Source of the DNA: Methylophaga sp.
GTDB lineage: Bacteria > Pseudomonadota > Gammaproteobacteria > Nitrosococcales > Methylophagaceae
Length of the DNA: 64,000 nt
Direction: 5' to 3'
Assembly: GCA_011053005.1 (NCBI GenBank)
Contig: DRHW01000020.1
Coordinates: 62,001 to 126,000, forward strand
The notes beneath the pieces were generated by a model. It searched no databases. It was not told the origin of the DNA and worked only from the letters and a program-made list of their open reading frames with translations. Shown one piece after another: positions 28,557 to 41,459 of this stretch. The stretch's first letter is position 1. Each line of letters begins with the position of its first letter. A program made the position numbers and the translations under genes.

Positions 28557-29225
28557 ATGCATAACTATGAGGTTTCTATGTCATCACTCGCAATTCAAAC
28601 ACCAGTATTGATCTCCGCTATTATTCGCATCATCAATGATAATGCTGATGAAGTGACGGAGCTTGATCGCGTCATTGGTGACGGCGATCATGTGACCAAT
28701 TTACAACGCGGTTTAGCTGCTTTAGAAAAGATAAACGATGAATTATCTACACTTGAATGGTCGCCAGCTTTGATGAAAATCGGTATGACTTTGATGTCAG
28801 CGATGGGAGGCGCCTCAGGATCATTATTTGGCACATTGTTTATCAGCATGGCAAAAGCGACGAAGGATAAAACTGTAGACTTTACTCATTTTCCAGAGAT
28901 ATTTAATCAAGGTGTAGAGGCAGTGAAACAACGAGGTAAAGCAGCATTAGGCGAGAAAACAATGTTGGATACCTTGATCCCAGTGGCAAATTCATTAATG
29001 TCTGATGCTAAAAATAACATTGCTTTTGCCGAAGCGCTAAACAATACAAAAGCTGCTGCAATACAGGGTATGCAATCAACTGAAGCAATGGTGGCAACTA
29101 AAGGTCGCGCCTCTTTTCTAGGTGAACGCTCTATCGGGCATATTGATGCTGGTGCACGAACAAGTCAGTTGATGGTTTGTGCTATTGCTGATGTTTTATT
29201 GCAAGGATTAACAGCCCCAACGTAA
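28557..29225 (+). CDS. dhaL: Dihydroxyacetone kinase L subunit/domain
   Basis: ELDRVIGDGDHVTNLQRGLAAL, GGASGSLFGTLF, KGRASFLGERSIGHIDAGARTS. Confidence 0.93.
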   Translation: MHNYEVSMSSLAIQTPVLISAIIRIINDNADEVTELDRVIGDGDHVTNLQRGLAALEKINDELSTLEWSPALMKIGMTLMSAMGGASGSLFGTLFISMAKATKDKTVDFTHFPEIFNQGVEAVKQRGKAALGEKTMLDTLIPVANSLMSDAKNNIAFAEALNNTKAAAIQGMQSTEAMVATKGRASFLGERSIGHIDAGARTSQLMVCAIADVLLQGLTAPT

Positions 29226-30197
29226 ATTTGCTGTGTGTACAGGGGCATCCCAAAGTCCTATTAATTCATCGTCTAACAATGTTAAAGTCACCGAGCAGCC
29301 CGCCATATCTAAAGAGGTTGTGTAATTCCCCACTAAAGAACGAACGACATCAATACCTTTTTGTTGCCATAATGTCGCGGCTAAATCAAAAACTAAATAC
29401 AATTCCATAAGCGGAGTGGCACCAAAGCCATTCACATGAAGTAATACTTTTTGACTTTTTTGAGGCTGAAGCTCTGGATCAATCGCTTCCACTAAATGCT
29501 TCACAATTTGGTCCGCATTTTCTAGTGGCATTGTTTGTCGTCCACGTTCGCCGTGAATACCTACGCCCATTTCCATTTCATTATCAGCAATTTCAAATGT
29601 AGGTTTTCCTAGTGCTGGAACAGTACAACTGCTTAAAGCCACGCCCATTGTCGCAGTAGCTTTATTAACACGATCGCCCAATGCTTTACATTCCGCTAAG
29701 CTTGCTCCTGCCTCTGCTGCCGCGCCCACTATTTTTTCAACGATAAGTGTACCAGCAACACCTCGGCGACCTGTAGGATGATCTTTAGGTAAAGAAACAT
29801 CATCACTTACCAAAACAGTGTCGCAAGGACAACTTAACATCTCACCGGCAATTTCAAAGTTCATCACATCACCAGCATAATTTTTGACGATAAATAATAC
29901 CCCAGCACCATTTTCTACAGACTCAGCTGCTGCCATCATTTGATCGGGGCTGGGTGATGTAAATATATAGCCAGGGCAAGCTGCATCTAACATTCCGATG
30001 CCTACCAACCCCGTGTGAAGAGGTTCATGACCCGAACCGCCACCCGAAATTAATGCCACTTTAGCATTGGTACTAAGTTGTTTTCGACGAATAAAATGTG
30101 GGGTATTATTAAATTCAATGATGTCCTGATGGGCTTTAGCAAAGCCATTAAGGCTTTCTTCTAATAGACTTTCAACACTGTTTATAATTTTTTTCAT
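29208..30197 (-). CDS. dhaK: Dihydroxyacetone kinase K subunit/domain
   Basis: ALISGGGSGHEPLHTGLVGIGMLDAACPG, NYAGDVMNFEIA, GRRGVAGTLIVEKIVGAAAE, MGVGIHGERGR. Confidence 0.95.
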   Translation of the reverse strand: MKKIINSVESLLEESLNGFAKAHQDIIEFNNTPHFIRRKQLSTNAKVALISGGGSGHEPLHTGLVGIGMLDAACPGYIFTSPSPDQMMAAAESVENGAGVLFIVKNYAGDVMNFEIAGEMLSCPCDTVLVSDDVSLPKDHPTGRRGVAGTLIVEKIVGAAAEAGASLAECKALGDRVNKATATMGVALSSCTVPALGKPTFEIADNEMEMGVGIHGERGRQTMPLENADQIVKHLVEAIDPELQPQKSQKVLLHVNGFGATPLMELYLVFDLAATLWQQKGIDVVRSLVGNYTTSLDMAGCSVTLTLLDDELIGLWDAPVHTANLRWGC

Positions 30198-30213
30198 TGA
30201 ATACCTCTACACG

Positions 30214-31056
30214 TTAATTTGTTTTTTGATTCTTCAATATTTGAGAAATCTGCTGAATGTCTGCCATCACCCAAGTCGGGGCATAGTCTAATTTAGCAAT
30301 ATCTTGTTCCGTTGACACACCAGTTAGCACCATAATACTGCGCATTCCAGCATTAACAGCACCCAATATATCAGTATTTAAACGATCACCAATCGCAATA
30401 GTATTTGCTTTGTTAGTACCTAGTAACGCAAGAGCTTGTTCGTATAAAATCGGGGCAGGCTTACCAATACTCGTTGGTTTTATTCCCGTCACTGCTTCTA
30501 GCGCCGCCAATACACCACCGTTTCCCATGACTTCACCTAATTCTGTAGGTAATGTGGTATCGGAATTTGTCGCAAAAAATTGCGCACCAAGGTTAATGTT
30601 CAAAGTAGCTGTTGCTAGTTTGTCCCATGTAAGTTGACGATCTAAACCTGAGACAACAAGATCAGCACCTTGATCTAAAATGCCTTTATCTGGCTGGTTA
30701 ACTTGATACAAATCTGTTAAGGTAAAACCTTGTTCGATAAGTGGTTGTCGTAAGCCATCCTCACCGATGACAAATACGCGACGTTTATCAGAAGGTAAGT
30801 GTTGGGTTAGGTACTGGGCTGTGGCCATACTTGAGGTCAGTATTTCGCAGTGATCAATATCAACGCCCATTCCAGCTAGCTTGTCGACATATTGTTGCTG
30901 AGTAAGACTCGCATTATTGGTAGCTAATACAAAAGGAATGGCACAGCTTCTAAGCACAGAAAAAAACTCAATTAATCCATCCATTGGTTTATTTCCATGC
31001 CAAAGCACACCATCCATATCAATAATTAATCCAGCTAGATCATCAATTTCAATCAT
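30214..31056 (-). CDS. HAD-IIA family (NagD/phosphoglycolate phosphatase-like) hydrolase
   Basis: LIIDMDGVLWHGNKPMDGLIEFF, ATNNAS, GKPAPILYEQAL, IGDRLNTDILGAVNAGM. Confidence 0.92.
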   Translation of the reverse strand: MIEIDDLAGLIIDMDGVLWHGNKPMDGLIEFFSVLRSCAIPFVLATNNASLTQQQYVDKLAGMGVDIDHCEILTSSMATAQYLTQHLPSDKRRVFVIGEDGLRQPLIEQGFTLTDLYQVNQPDKGILDQGADLVVSGLDRQLTWDKLATATLNINLGAQFFATNSDTTLPTELGEVMGNGGVLAALEAVTGIKPTSIGKPAPILYEQALALLGTNKANTIAIGDRLNTDILGAVNAGMRSIMVLTGVSTEQDIAKLDYAPTWVMADIQQISQILKNQKTN

Positions 31057-31278: not shown

Positions 31279-31920
31279 ATGGCAAAAGCACTTATCCAAA
31301 TGGCGCTAGATTCTCTAGATTTCGATGCAACAATCGCACTTGCTGAGCAAGTAGCACCTTATGTTGATATCTTGGAAATTGGTACACCTTGCATCAAGTA
31401 CAATGGTCTTGAACTTGTAACTGCATTGAAAGCAAAATTCCCAAACAAACTACTTCTAGTTGATCTTAAAACGATGGATGCTGGTGAGTATGAATCAACA
31501 CCTTTCTATGAAGCTGGTGCTGACATCTGTACTGTTTTGGGTGTTTCTGACAAAGCAACTATGGGCGGCGTAATTAAAGCTGCAAATGCTAACAATGCTG
31601 AAGCACAAATCGATTTAATCAGTGTTAAAGATAAAGCAGCAGTAGCAACTGCAGCAGCAGCTAACGGCGCACAAATCATCGGTGTTCACACTGGTCTTGA
31701 TGCTCAAGCAGCAGGTCAAACACCTTTTGCTGATTTATCTTTAGTTGCTAGCTTAAACTTAGGTGTTCGCATCTCAGTTGCTGGTGGTATTAACAAAGAT
31801 ACTATCCAAAAAACAATTCAAGCAGGCGCAACTATCGTTGTTGTCGGTGCAGCAATCTACGGTGCAGCTTCTCCAGCAGAATCTGCTAAAGAATTGCGTG
31901 CATTAGTTGATGCAGCATAA
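31279..31920 (+). CDS. hps: 3-hexulose-6-phosphate synthase (copy 1)
   Basis: QMALDSLDFDATIALAEQVAPYVDILEIGTPCIKYNGLELV, DLKTMDAGEYESTPFYEAGADICTVLG, GGINKDTI. Confidence 0.96.
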   Translation: MAKALIQMALDSLDFDATIALAEQVAPYVDILEIGTPCIKYNGLELVTALKAKFPNKLLLVDLKTMDAGEYESTPFYEAGADICTVLGVSDKATMGGVIKAANANNAEAQIDLISVKDKAAVATAAAANGAQIIGVHTGLDAQAAGQTPFADLSLVASLNLGVRISVAGGINKDTIQKTIQAGATIVVVGAAIYGAASPAESAKELRALVDAA

Positions 31921-31924
31921 TCTA

Positions 31925-31994
31925 ATTTAGAGCACGCTCTAAATATAGAATATGAAGAACGGGTGACCTTACTTAAATGAGGTCACTCGTTTTT
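31925..31994 (+). terminator. Tandem hairpins / terminator after hps1
   Basis: ATTTAGAGC-AC-GCTCTAAAT, then ACGGGTGACCT...AGGTCACTCGT-TTTTT. Confidence 0.8.
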
Positions 31995-32177
31995 TACTAT
32001 AGCTAGTTCAATGTACAAGTGTAAATGTAGGCAAAAACATAAAAGTCATGAAAATAAACAGCGCTTTTTGTTTAACTCTTCTGGGTTGCCACAGTTAACC
32101 TAAAAATAGAAATTAATTCATCGTACTTTCAAATTTTAAGATCGATAGAATTCCAAATTTAACAGGGGTATATCTAA

Positions 32178-32522
32178 ATGAGTGAAAAAGGTCTATTGGC
32201 TACAATTTGTAGCTTCTTCAGTGGTTTGTTTTCTTCTGATAATACAAATACTGTATTACCAGCAACAAGCAAAAAAAGTAACGACGGTCTTACAGGCGTA
32301 GAACGTTACATCAGAAACCAAGCAACTAAAAGCAATCAATTAACGGGTGTTGAATCTTATATCCGTAATCAAAAAAGTACACACAGCGTTACAAGTGTTG
32401 AAGCTTATATCCGTAACCAAGCTAATACACAAAATGTAACCAGTGTTGAAACTTATATTCGTAACCAGGCTAATACACAAAAAGTAACGAGTGTTGAAGC
32501 ATATATTCGTAACCAAGGTTAA
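32178..32522 (+). CDS. Small tandem-repeat protein of unknown function (five [L/V]T[G/S]VExYIRNQ repeats)
   Basis: 114-aa ORF; hydrophobic N-terminal segment GLLATICSFFSGLF, then LTGVERYIRNQ, LTGVESYIRNQ, VTSVEAYIRNQ, VTSVETYIRNQ, VTSVEAYIRNQ with ~16-aa period. Confidence 0.85.
   Translation: MSEKGLLATICSFFSGLFSSDNTNTVLPATSKKSNDGLTGVERYIRNQATKSNQLTGVESYIRNQKSTHSVTSVEAYIRNQANTQNVTSVETYIRNQANTQKVTSVEAYIRNQG
32289..32519 (+). repeat. Five-unit coding tandem repeat (~48-51 bp period)
   Basis: Repeats differ mostly at synonymous sites (e.g. ACAGGCGTAGAA / ACGGGTGTTGAA / ACAAGTGTTGAA / ACCAGTGTTGAA / ACGAGTGTTGAA). Confidence 0.9.
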
Positions 32523-32698: not shown

Positions 32699-33682
32699 AT
32701 GGCAAATTTACTTGATCAGCTAAAAGAAATGACCGTTGTTGTTGCCGATACTGGCGATATTGCAGCAATCGAAAAATTTACACCTCGTGATGCAACAACA
32801 AATCCTTCACTTATTACTGCAGCAGCTCAAATGCCGCAATATCAAGCAATCGTCGATGATACTTTAAAAAGTGCACGTGAAACGGTTGGAGCAGATGCTT
32901 CAGCTACTGATGTTGTTTCATTAGCATTCGACCGTTTAGCAGTATCTTTCGGTTTGAAAATTCTTGATATCGTACCGCACCGTGTATCTACAGAAGTTGA
33001 TGCTAGATTATCGTACGACACTGAAGCAACAATCGCAAAAGGTCGTGACCTAATTGCTCAATACGAAGCTGCGGGTGTATCTCGTGACCGCGTATTAATC
33101 AAAATTGCAGCAACTTGGGAAGGTATTCAAGCAGCCGCTGTACTTGAAAAAGAAAATATTCACACTAACTTAACCTTAGTGTTTGGTTTACACCAAGCAA
33201 TCGCTTGTGCTGAAAACGGTATCACATTGATTTCACCTTTCGTTGGTCGAATCCTTGATTGGTACAAAAAAGATACAGGTACAGATTCATATGCACCGGC
33301 TGAAGATCCAGGTGTAGTATCAGTAACAGCGATCTACAACTATTTCAAAAAATTCGGTTATAACACTGAAGTTATGGGTGCAAGCTTCCGTAACCTAGGT
33401 GAAATCACAGAATTAGCAGGCGTTGATTTATTAACTATTTCTCCTGGATTGTTAGATGAATTGCAATCAACTGAAGGTGAACTACCACGTAAATTATCAT
33501 CTGAACAAGCTATGTCTTCTGACATTGCTAAAATTGATATGAACAAAGCAACTTTTGATGCAATGCATACTGAAGATCGTATGGCGACTGAAAAATTGTC
33601 AGAAGGTATTGATGGTTTTGCAAAAGCATTAGAATCACTTGAAGAATTACTCGCTAGCCGTTTGGCTGAATTAGAAGCTTAA
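32699..33682 (+). CDS. tal: Transaldolase
   Basis: [89 protein letters not shown]. Confidence 0.97.
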
Positions 33683-33785: not shown

Positions 33786-33841
33786 CCCGAATCGCGTATA
33801 AACGTGTGATAAATCAAACTAATACTTTAGGAGTATGTAAC

Positions 33842-34477
33842 ATGGCAGAAATCCAAATGGCTCTAGATTCTCTAGACTTCGACGCAACTATGGCTTTAGC
33901 AGAACAAGTTGCACCTTATGTTGATATCTTAGAAATCGGCACACCTTGTATCAAATACAATGGTCTTAAACTAGTTAAAGCTTTAAAAGCTGCACACCCA
34001 ACTAAAAAAATCTTAGTTGACCTTAAAACTATGGATGCTGGCGAATATGAATCAACGCCTTTCTTCGAAGCTGGTGGTGATATCACTACAGTTTTGGGTG
34101 CATCTGATATGGCTACAATCAACGGTGTTATCAAAGCTGCAAACGCTAACAATGCTGAAGCTCAAGTCGATTTAATCGGTGTTGAAGATAAAGCTGCTGT
34201 TGCTAAAGCTGCTGCTGCAAACGGTGCTCAAATCATCGGTGTTCACACTGGTCTTGACGCTCAAGCTGCAGGTCAAACACCTTTTGCTGACTTAGCATTA
34301 ATTGCTGGTCTTGGCTTAGATGTTAAAATCTCTGTTGCTGGTGGTATTAACAAAACAACTATTCAAGATACAGTTCGCGCTGGTGCTTCAATCGTTGTTG
34401 TTGGTGCGGCTATCTACGGCGCAGCTTCTCCAGCAGAATCAGCTAAAGAACTACGTGCTTTAGTTGACGCGGCATAA
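33842..34477 (+). CDS. hps: 3-hexulose-6-phosphate synthase (copy 2)
   Basis: MAEIQMALDSLDFDATMALAEQVAPYVDILEIGTPCIKYNGLKLV; closely similar to copy 1 throughout; likely start at 33842. Confidence 0.96.
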   Translation: MAEIQMALDSLDFDATMALAEQVAPYVDILEIGTPCIKYNGLKLVKALKAAHPTKKILVDLKTMDAGEYESTPFFEAGGDITTVLGASDMATINGVIKAANANNAEAQVDLIGVEDKAAVAKAAAANGAQIIGVHTGLDAQAAGQTPFADLALIAGLGLDVKISVAGGINKTTIQDTVRAGASIVVVGAAIYGAASPAESAKELRALVDAA

Positions 34478-34488
34478 GGAATAGAAAA

Positions 34489-35022
34489 ATGCATCGTGAT
34501 CTACTCTTAAATAAAATCACTAATATCCTTGGTTCTACTGATGATTCATACGAAGCTAAATTAGTTTCAATGTGTGATGATGCCAAACGCATCTTTATTA
34601 CAGGCGCAGGTCGCTCAAAACTGGTTGGTAACTTCCTAGGGATGAGATTGATGCACAGTGGTTATGAAACCTATGTGCAGGGTGAAGTTGCAACACCAAG
34701 TATTCGTGAAGGCGATTTATTAATCGTTATCTCGGGTTCAGGTGAAACAACTCAACTTGTATCTTTCGCGAATAAAGCTAAGTCTGAAGGTGCGAAAGTG
34801 ATTTTGATTTGTTCTAAATCTAAATCAACTATTGGTGATATAGCGGATCAAACGATTCAAGTTGGTAACGATGATAGTTTTGCTCTTACTAAGGGCATGC
34901 CTATGGGAACCATGTTTGAATTATCTACATTAATCTTCTTAGAAGCAGCAATTTCTTACCTCATTCATGAGAAAGATCTTACTGAAGAAGCAATGAGATA
35001 CAGACACGCTAATATGGAATAA
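34489..35022 (+). CDS. hxlB: 6-phospho-3-hexuloisomerase
   Basis: SIS domain: RIFITGAGRSKLVGNFLGMRLMHSGYETYVQGEVATPSIREGDLLIVISGSGET; directly after hps2. Confidence 0.95.
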   Translation: MHRDLLLNKITNILGSTDDSYEAKLVSMCDDAKRIFITGAGRSKLVGNFLGMRLMHSGYETYVQGEVATPSIREGDLLIVISGSGETTQLVSFANKAKSEGAKVILICSKSKSTIGDIADQTIQVGNDDSFALTKGMPMGTMFELSTLIFLEAAISYLIHEKDLTEEAMRYRHANME

Positions 35023-40683: not shown

Positions 40684-41459
40684 CCACCAAACTCGCTCGT
40701 CATCGTGTTGCATTTACGACTTTACTATCACGCGAAATTCGTCGGTTTATTCGTATTTGGCCACAAACATTATTACCGCCAGCCATTACGATGACCTTAT
40801 ATTTTGTTATTTTTGGTAATTTGATTGGTGGTCGAATTGGTGAAATGGGTGGCTTTAGCTACATTCAATATATTGCACCGGGCATCATCATGATGTCAGT
40901 CATTAATAATGCCTATTCAAATGTCGCCTCTTCCTTTTTCAGTGCAAAGTTCCAAAATCATATTGAAGAACTGATCGTCGCACCAGTACCCAATTATCTG
41001 ATTTTGGCAGGCTATGTAGCCGGAGGAACAGCACGCGGTTTATTGGTAGGGCTGATTGTGACCATTGTTTCTTTATTTTTCACACATCTCAGCATACAAC
41101 ATATTTTTATTACCATCAGCATGGTGTTTTTAAGTGCGATTTTGTTTGCATTAGGTGGCTTTATTAATGCGATTTATGCCAGAAGTTTTGACGAAATATC
41201 CATCATCCCAACGTTCATTTTGACACCGATGACATATTTAGGCGGTGTATTTTATTCGATCAGTTTACTGCCTGAATTTTGGCAGAAAGTATCGCTACTT
41301 AATCCGATTCTATATATGGTTAATGCTTTTCGTTATGGCATGTTGGGCGCATCAGATATTGCTGTCGAAGTCGCTTTTGCCATTATTTTAGTGTGTATTG
41401 TAAGCTTAGCCAGTTTTGCACTTTATCTACTCAACAAAGGCACTGGCATCCGGAACTAA
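40680..41459 (+). CDS. ABC-2 type transporter permease
   Basis: Six TM segments, [17 protein letters not shown], overlaps ATPase by 4 bp. Confidence 0.94.

Follow-up and report, generated by a model that had tools for sequence, protein, structure and literature searches.

The 114-residue ORF between hps1 and tal in the RuMP locus of a Methylophaga sp. genome is best explained as the Methylophaga-lineage member of a repeat-protein family that accompanies RuMP genes, here named the TGVxxYL array family. The family is defined by at least two copies of the motif T/S-x-V-x-x-Y-[ILVM] per ORF; the protein encoded in the window (the whole 64 kb stretch of DNA that was analysed) carries five copies and is encoded in an hps-phi-tkt-tal neighbourhood. 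It is almost certainly a functional component of the RuMP locus and, judged from sequence comparisons, very probably a multivalent docking array. A membrane-anchored docking scaffold for the RuMP machinery, with HPS as its likeliest partner, is a reading to which we give an even chance. The observation holds up and extends beyond the single locus considered in an earlier note on this DNA.

Table 1. Features of the array gene and of the surrounding RuMP locus (window coordinates).
Feature	Position	Strand	Basis
hps1, 3-hexulose-6-phosphate synthase	31279..31920	+	TIGR03128
Hairpin and T run, terminator-like, 3' of hps1	31953..31996	+	z -6.7
Array gene (whole ORF, 114 aa)	32178..32522	+	ORF call, homologues, purifying selection
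Hydrophobic N-terminal helix GLLATICSFFSGLF, putative membrane/assembly anchor	32190..32231	+	conservation, AF2 helix, moment
Motif copy 1, LTGVERYIRNQ	32289..32321	+	repeat analysis
Motif copy 2, LTGVESYIRNQ	32340..32372	+	repeat analysis
Motif copy 3, VTSVEAYIRNQ	32388..32420	+	repeat analysis
Motif copy 4, VTSVETYIRNQ	32436..32468	+	repeat analysis
Motif copy 5, VTSVEAYIRNQ, C-terminal, ends in G	32484..32516	+	C-terminal motif common to methanotroph proteins
tal, transaldolase	32699..33682	+	TIGR00874
hps2, second 3-hexulose-6-phosphate synthase	33806..34477	+	TIGR03128
phi, 6-phospho-3-hexuloisomerase	34489..35022	+	TIGR03127

The architecture described in the earlier note, a hydrophobic N-terminal segment followed by five [LV]T[GS]VExYIRNQ copies, was confirmed. 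The copies begin at residues 38, 55, 71, 87 and 103 (spacing 17, 16, 16 and 16) and are 61–88% identical to one another in DNA and alike in 8–11 of 11 residues in protein. Over the ten copy pairs, codon differences are silent in 39 cases and alter the residue in 21, which bears out the earlier observation that the copies differ mainly synonymously and fits its suggestion of selection on the peptide motif rather than recent slippage. A chance origin of the repeats was rejected, as T[GS]V..Y[IL] never matched more than once in any of 20,000 shuffles that kept the composition of the window protein; elsewhere in the window the pattern has a single, loose match, at 40739. The array gene is under purifying selection: across 30 homologues, dN/dS over the 161 gene pairs for which dS was usable has a median of 0.23 and reaches 0.37 at most. 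A short, repeat-bearing ORF upstream of tal might also be read as a leader or regulatory peptide controlling tal, or as a slippage product of the DNA repeats without any role at the protein level; the dN/dS value, the excess of synonymous over non-synonymous codon changes among the copies and the existence of counterparts of up to 545 residues at the same site make this highly improbable.

The N-terminal hydrophobic segment (about 14 residues) is present and conserved in homologues of the window protein; AF2 places a helix at residues 4–18, and the helical moment is modest at 0.32. For the window protein as a whole, AF2 gives the layout of a scaffold-type protein, with an isolated helix at every motif and no overall fold, in a low-confidence model (pTM 0.20); confidence in the AF2 modelling was likewise low by pLDDT (64 and 58). 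From its sequence, each motif would form a short docking helix of ten residues, capped by the threonine (N-cap) with glutamate or alanine at N3, and with the valine, tyrosine and isoleucine or leucine on one face; the AF2 helices at these positions, of low confidence, are consistent with this assignment.

The identities of the neighbouring genes (HPS, transaldolase, the second HPS and PHI) were verified with curated NCBIfam models. A strong terminator-like hairpin follows hps1, so the array gene probably has a transcript of its own; similar hairpins are found in many relatives. Upstream, at 28557-31056, lie dhaL, dhaK and a HAD-IIA phosphatase gene, which adjoin hps in Methylophaga relatives and in methanotrophs.

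The small array protein was found across the family of the window, the Methylophagaceae, and a homologue search detected it at useful significance in no other family sampled. The gene order nagD-hps1-array-tal-hps2(-phi) is seen in the family loci that could be read with enough flank. In G031, the upstream genes are rearranged, and a two-motif version of the array still lies directly upstream of tal. Six genomes (G001, G009, G013, G019, G025 and G029) gave neither an hps match nor the small protein; most are incomplete, and G029 is a reduced genome that is scored complete. In three fragmentary genomes (G005, G026 and G028), hps is partial and the small protein is missing, probably due to contig breaks.

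Counterparts were found in a second family, f155, which looks like the type I methanotrophs and also has hps: the motif profile matched in 55 of its 81 genomes. In the 34 regions that were read for methanotroph loci, mostly from f155, the RuMP loci carry motif arrays of 3–21 copies, and a frequent gene order is dhaL-dhaK-nagD-hps-phi-tkt-TM1-array2-tal-fba. The order dhaL-dhaK-nagD-hps...tal is thus shared with the Methylophaga relatives, which suggests a common origin of the locus. TM1 and array2 usually lie between tkt and tal, nearly contiguous and inside the gene string. TM1, mostly 230–260 residues long, combines a signal peptide with one to three copies of the YPAADFxPKVxYxD repeat, a basic-flanked transmembrane helix and a C-terminal part with usually four motifs, most often ending in TGVEKY[LM]R[ND][KR]G; AF2 predicts helices at residues 4–26 and 128–147, plus one per motif. 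From this sequence, TM1 is predicted to have a periplasmic segment, a transmembrane helix and a cytoplasmic four-motif tail. The array2 protein (140–545 residues) has a short hydrophobic N-terminus and 5–21 motifs. The N-terminus of the window protein is like that of array2, and its C-terminal repeat like that of TM1; an unequivocal transmembrane helix occurs only in methanotroph members of the array family, the window protein having a short hydrophobic helix. In L219:6667-7365 and its homologues (alignment A4), the periplasmic repeat extends to YPAADFxPKVxYxDxxYK, in one to three copies, and may possibly dock to a periplasmic partner.

The methanotroph arrays are closely tied to RuMP genes. 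In the regions read, 44 of 49 arrays are on the same strand as, and at most 1.5 kb from, hps, phi, tkt or tal; of the remaining five, contig ends or masked sequence truncate three (L164 twice, L212), and two genuinely lie away from these genes (L172, L209). Duplicated hps-phi-tkt cassettes come with arrays (L156, L216, L218 and L220), and in a third family, f123, tal is flanked by two array-hps-phi copies. This arrangement matches the duplication described for Methylococcus capsulatus in the accessible parts of PMC517821 and PMC8527097, which do not mention the array. At L174 (G183:C1:1357000-1376000), where two array-hps-phi copies surround tal, the array and hps matches of both copies fall in several reading frames.

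The association extends to the class level. In a sample of 370 gammaproteobacterial genomes, used for both the hps and the motif searches, hps was found in seven genomes from three families. ORFs with at least two motif matches occur in all seven hps-positive genomes versus none of the other 363 (Fisher p = 6e-15 with kinship ignored, the hps-positive genomes representing three families). A profile built from the window's family alone missed the methanotroph arrays at its threshold; the f155 search and a two-group profile recovered them. Other motif positives in the class sample are scattered single matches with E values of 0.002-0.1, in about the number expected by chance. Among the candidates set aside, the single match in G122 is a chance hit in a TlpA-like protein, and two short ORFs in G037 with one motif each look unrelated. 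In the Methylophilaceae-like family, which bears HPS of the Pfam HUMPS family, no array was found in 60 genomes; the array is therefore not a universal part of RuMP. It is linked to RuMP in the hps-positive lineages that bear it. The RuMP association proposed earlier thus rests on family synteny, on joint absence with hps, on the methanotroph counterparts and on this co-occurrence. Homologues spread through non-RuMP genomes with no conserved neighbourhood, the outcome that was set beforehand as speaking against the proposal, were not the pattern observed.

The chances that the docking partner is a RuMP enzyme at all appear evenly balanced. Such an enzyme would be the most economical partner, since arrays are absent where hps is absent; HPS in particular is a tentative choice. 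Alternatively, the array might dock a cytosolic or membrane partner from outside the RuMP pathway at the membrane, such as a chaperone, a protease adaptor or a polar or membrane organiser, its location in the RuMP locus reflecting only co-expression on C1 substrates. The Methylophilaceae-like RuMP bacteria, which manage without an array, and motif carriers outside RuMP loci fit this alternative, which nevertheless seems rather unlikely given that arrays in the class sample are confined to hps-positive genomes and accompany hps-phi-tkt duplications.

With a RuMP enzyme as partner, the motif helices would bind this common cytosolic protein, several in series providing avidity, and the anchor (the transmembrane helix in methanotrophs, the short hydrophobic helix here) would keep it at the inner membrane, the site to which methanol oxidation in the periplasm delivers formaldehyde. 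An array with HPS as first candidate would then concentrate formaldehyde fixation at the membrane. We infer in this way the anchoring of the window protein, the identity of its partner, and channelling or formaldehyde protection. A broader version, which we put forward tentatively, is that methanotrophs and Methylophaga relatives share a membrane-tethered scaffold whose TGVxxYL motifs dock HPS, perhaps along with PHI, Tkt and Tal; the transmembrane member of methanotrophs might span from its periplasmic segment to the cytosolic RuMP enzymes and so couple periplasmic formaldehyde production to fixation. The HPS of Methylococcus was reportedly particulate in classical work by Quayle and colleagues.

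The candidate scaffold proposed in the earlier note is strengthened as an idea and is the favoured interpretation, and it has functional analogies in other carbon-fixing pathways. EPYC1 of Chlamydomonas is a low-complexity Rubisco linker with about five short helical repeats, and CsoS2 is a carboxysome assembly protein, encoded in the pathway operon, whose repeated helical motifs hold the carbon-fixing enzyme. Like EPYC1, the array has repeated short helices, here predicted ones, and is tied to a carbon-fixing pathway; in contrast to EPYC1, its period is 16 rather than about 60 residues, and membrane anchors, putative in the window protein, are found on the array side. The linkers of about 5–6 residues between motifs are too short to bridge separate large enzymes as EPYC1 does, so that membrane docking by avidity would be the better analogy; rather than spanning distant enzymes, the motifs more likely act through avidity or occupy several sites of a single oligomer. 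The array motif differs from that of CsoS2, and no carboxysome genes were seen in the array loci read. Both comparisons are functional analogies, with no sequence relation to EPYC1 claimed; at most, the array may be likened to the known multivalent enzyme linkers, and it is not placed as a member of any of them.

Searches of Pfam, NCBIfam and the PDB with the window protein and the methanotroph arrays returned chance-level matches only, Rfam gave nothing relevant, and plasmid searches were empty. A text search for the motif found no paper describing it, and the accessible parts of publications on RuMP loci do not mention the array gene. Thus, the motif is covered by no Pfam, NCBIfam or PDB family, and the array family is undescribed in the literature found. 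The question of how RuMP bacteria steer formaldehyde, which is toxic and arises in the periplasm, into sugar synthesis in the cytosol could be approached through such an array: a conserved, putatively anchored candidate docking array in the RuMP locus supplies targets for deletion and a testable motif. Engineered Mdh-Hps-Phi assemblies, reviewed in PMC8879981, aim to channel formaldehyde into HPS-PHI. Those assemblies are man-made; the arrays, if they bind HPS, would be their natural counterpart and could serve as a blueprint taken from nature for the bioconversion of methanol and methane, a field in which such assemblies are already being tried.

The motif also occurs in other proteins. In the host genome (2.9 Mb), a profile search found only one further motif protein, a ChpA-type kinase (L073:5733-11363, G000:C19) whose inter-HPt linker holds five TSVQRYIDQQ-like copies. 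Versions of the motif occur in most of the Methylophagaceae ChpA proteins examined, with T[GS]VxRYI present two or more times in the HPt linkers of this ChpA/PilL hybrid kinase; two lineages are without it. ChpA (P0001) has Hpt, HATPase, CheW and receiver domains, whereas the window protein has no significant Pfam match, and thus no Hpt, kinase, CheW or receiver domain that would place it in the ChpA family. That ChpA is the sole other carrier in the host, and that its motif is widespread in the family, could point to a motif-binding partner within the Chp chemosensory system of type IV pili, for which the small protein would compete with ChpA or which it would recruit to the membrane, so coupling C1 metabolism to twitching motility. 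Such a link is unlikely, as both lineages that lack the ChpA motif retain the small protein, G018 keeps it although its ChpA is full of stops, and the methanotroph arrays are tied to RuMP genes.

Since the motif is found in ChpA and in a Cys/His array outside the RuMP locus, the partner may be other than a RuMP enzyme; its presence in ChpA, Sel1-type and Cys/His proteins makes it look like a docking element that different proteins can carry and that has one partner in common. The motif could instead be a self-associating sticker, through which arrays, ChpA and other carriers co-cluster or condense, with the RuMP enzymes recruited otherwise or not at all. The sticker-and-spacer arrangement, the isolated state of the helices and the fact that unrelated proteins within a single cell carry the motif would fit, but it would be left unexplained why the arrays co-occur so tightly with hps and why the enzymes themselves lack the motif, and we consider self-association unlikely. 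The Cys/His proteins (L172:7148-8509 and L209:6481-7425) form a third array type, from a methanotroph and outside the RuMP locus, with a conserved C-terminal domain (C..ST.KGTQCK...C.QHNN.NF.P). The Sel1-type protein of f155, encoded on the minus strand of L157 and L158, combines a signal peptide and a transmembrane helix with a C-terminal VTGVERYIQEQ tail, and its gene sits near that of a SulP-type transporter.
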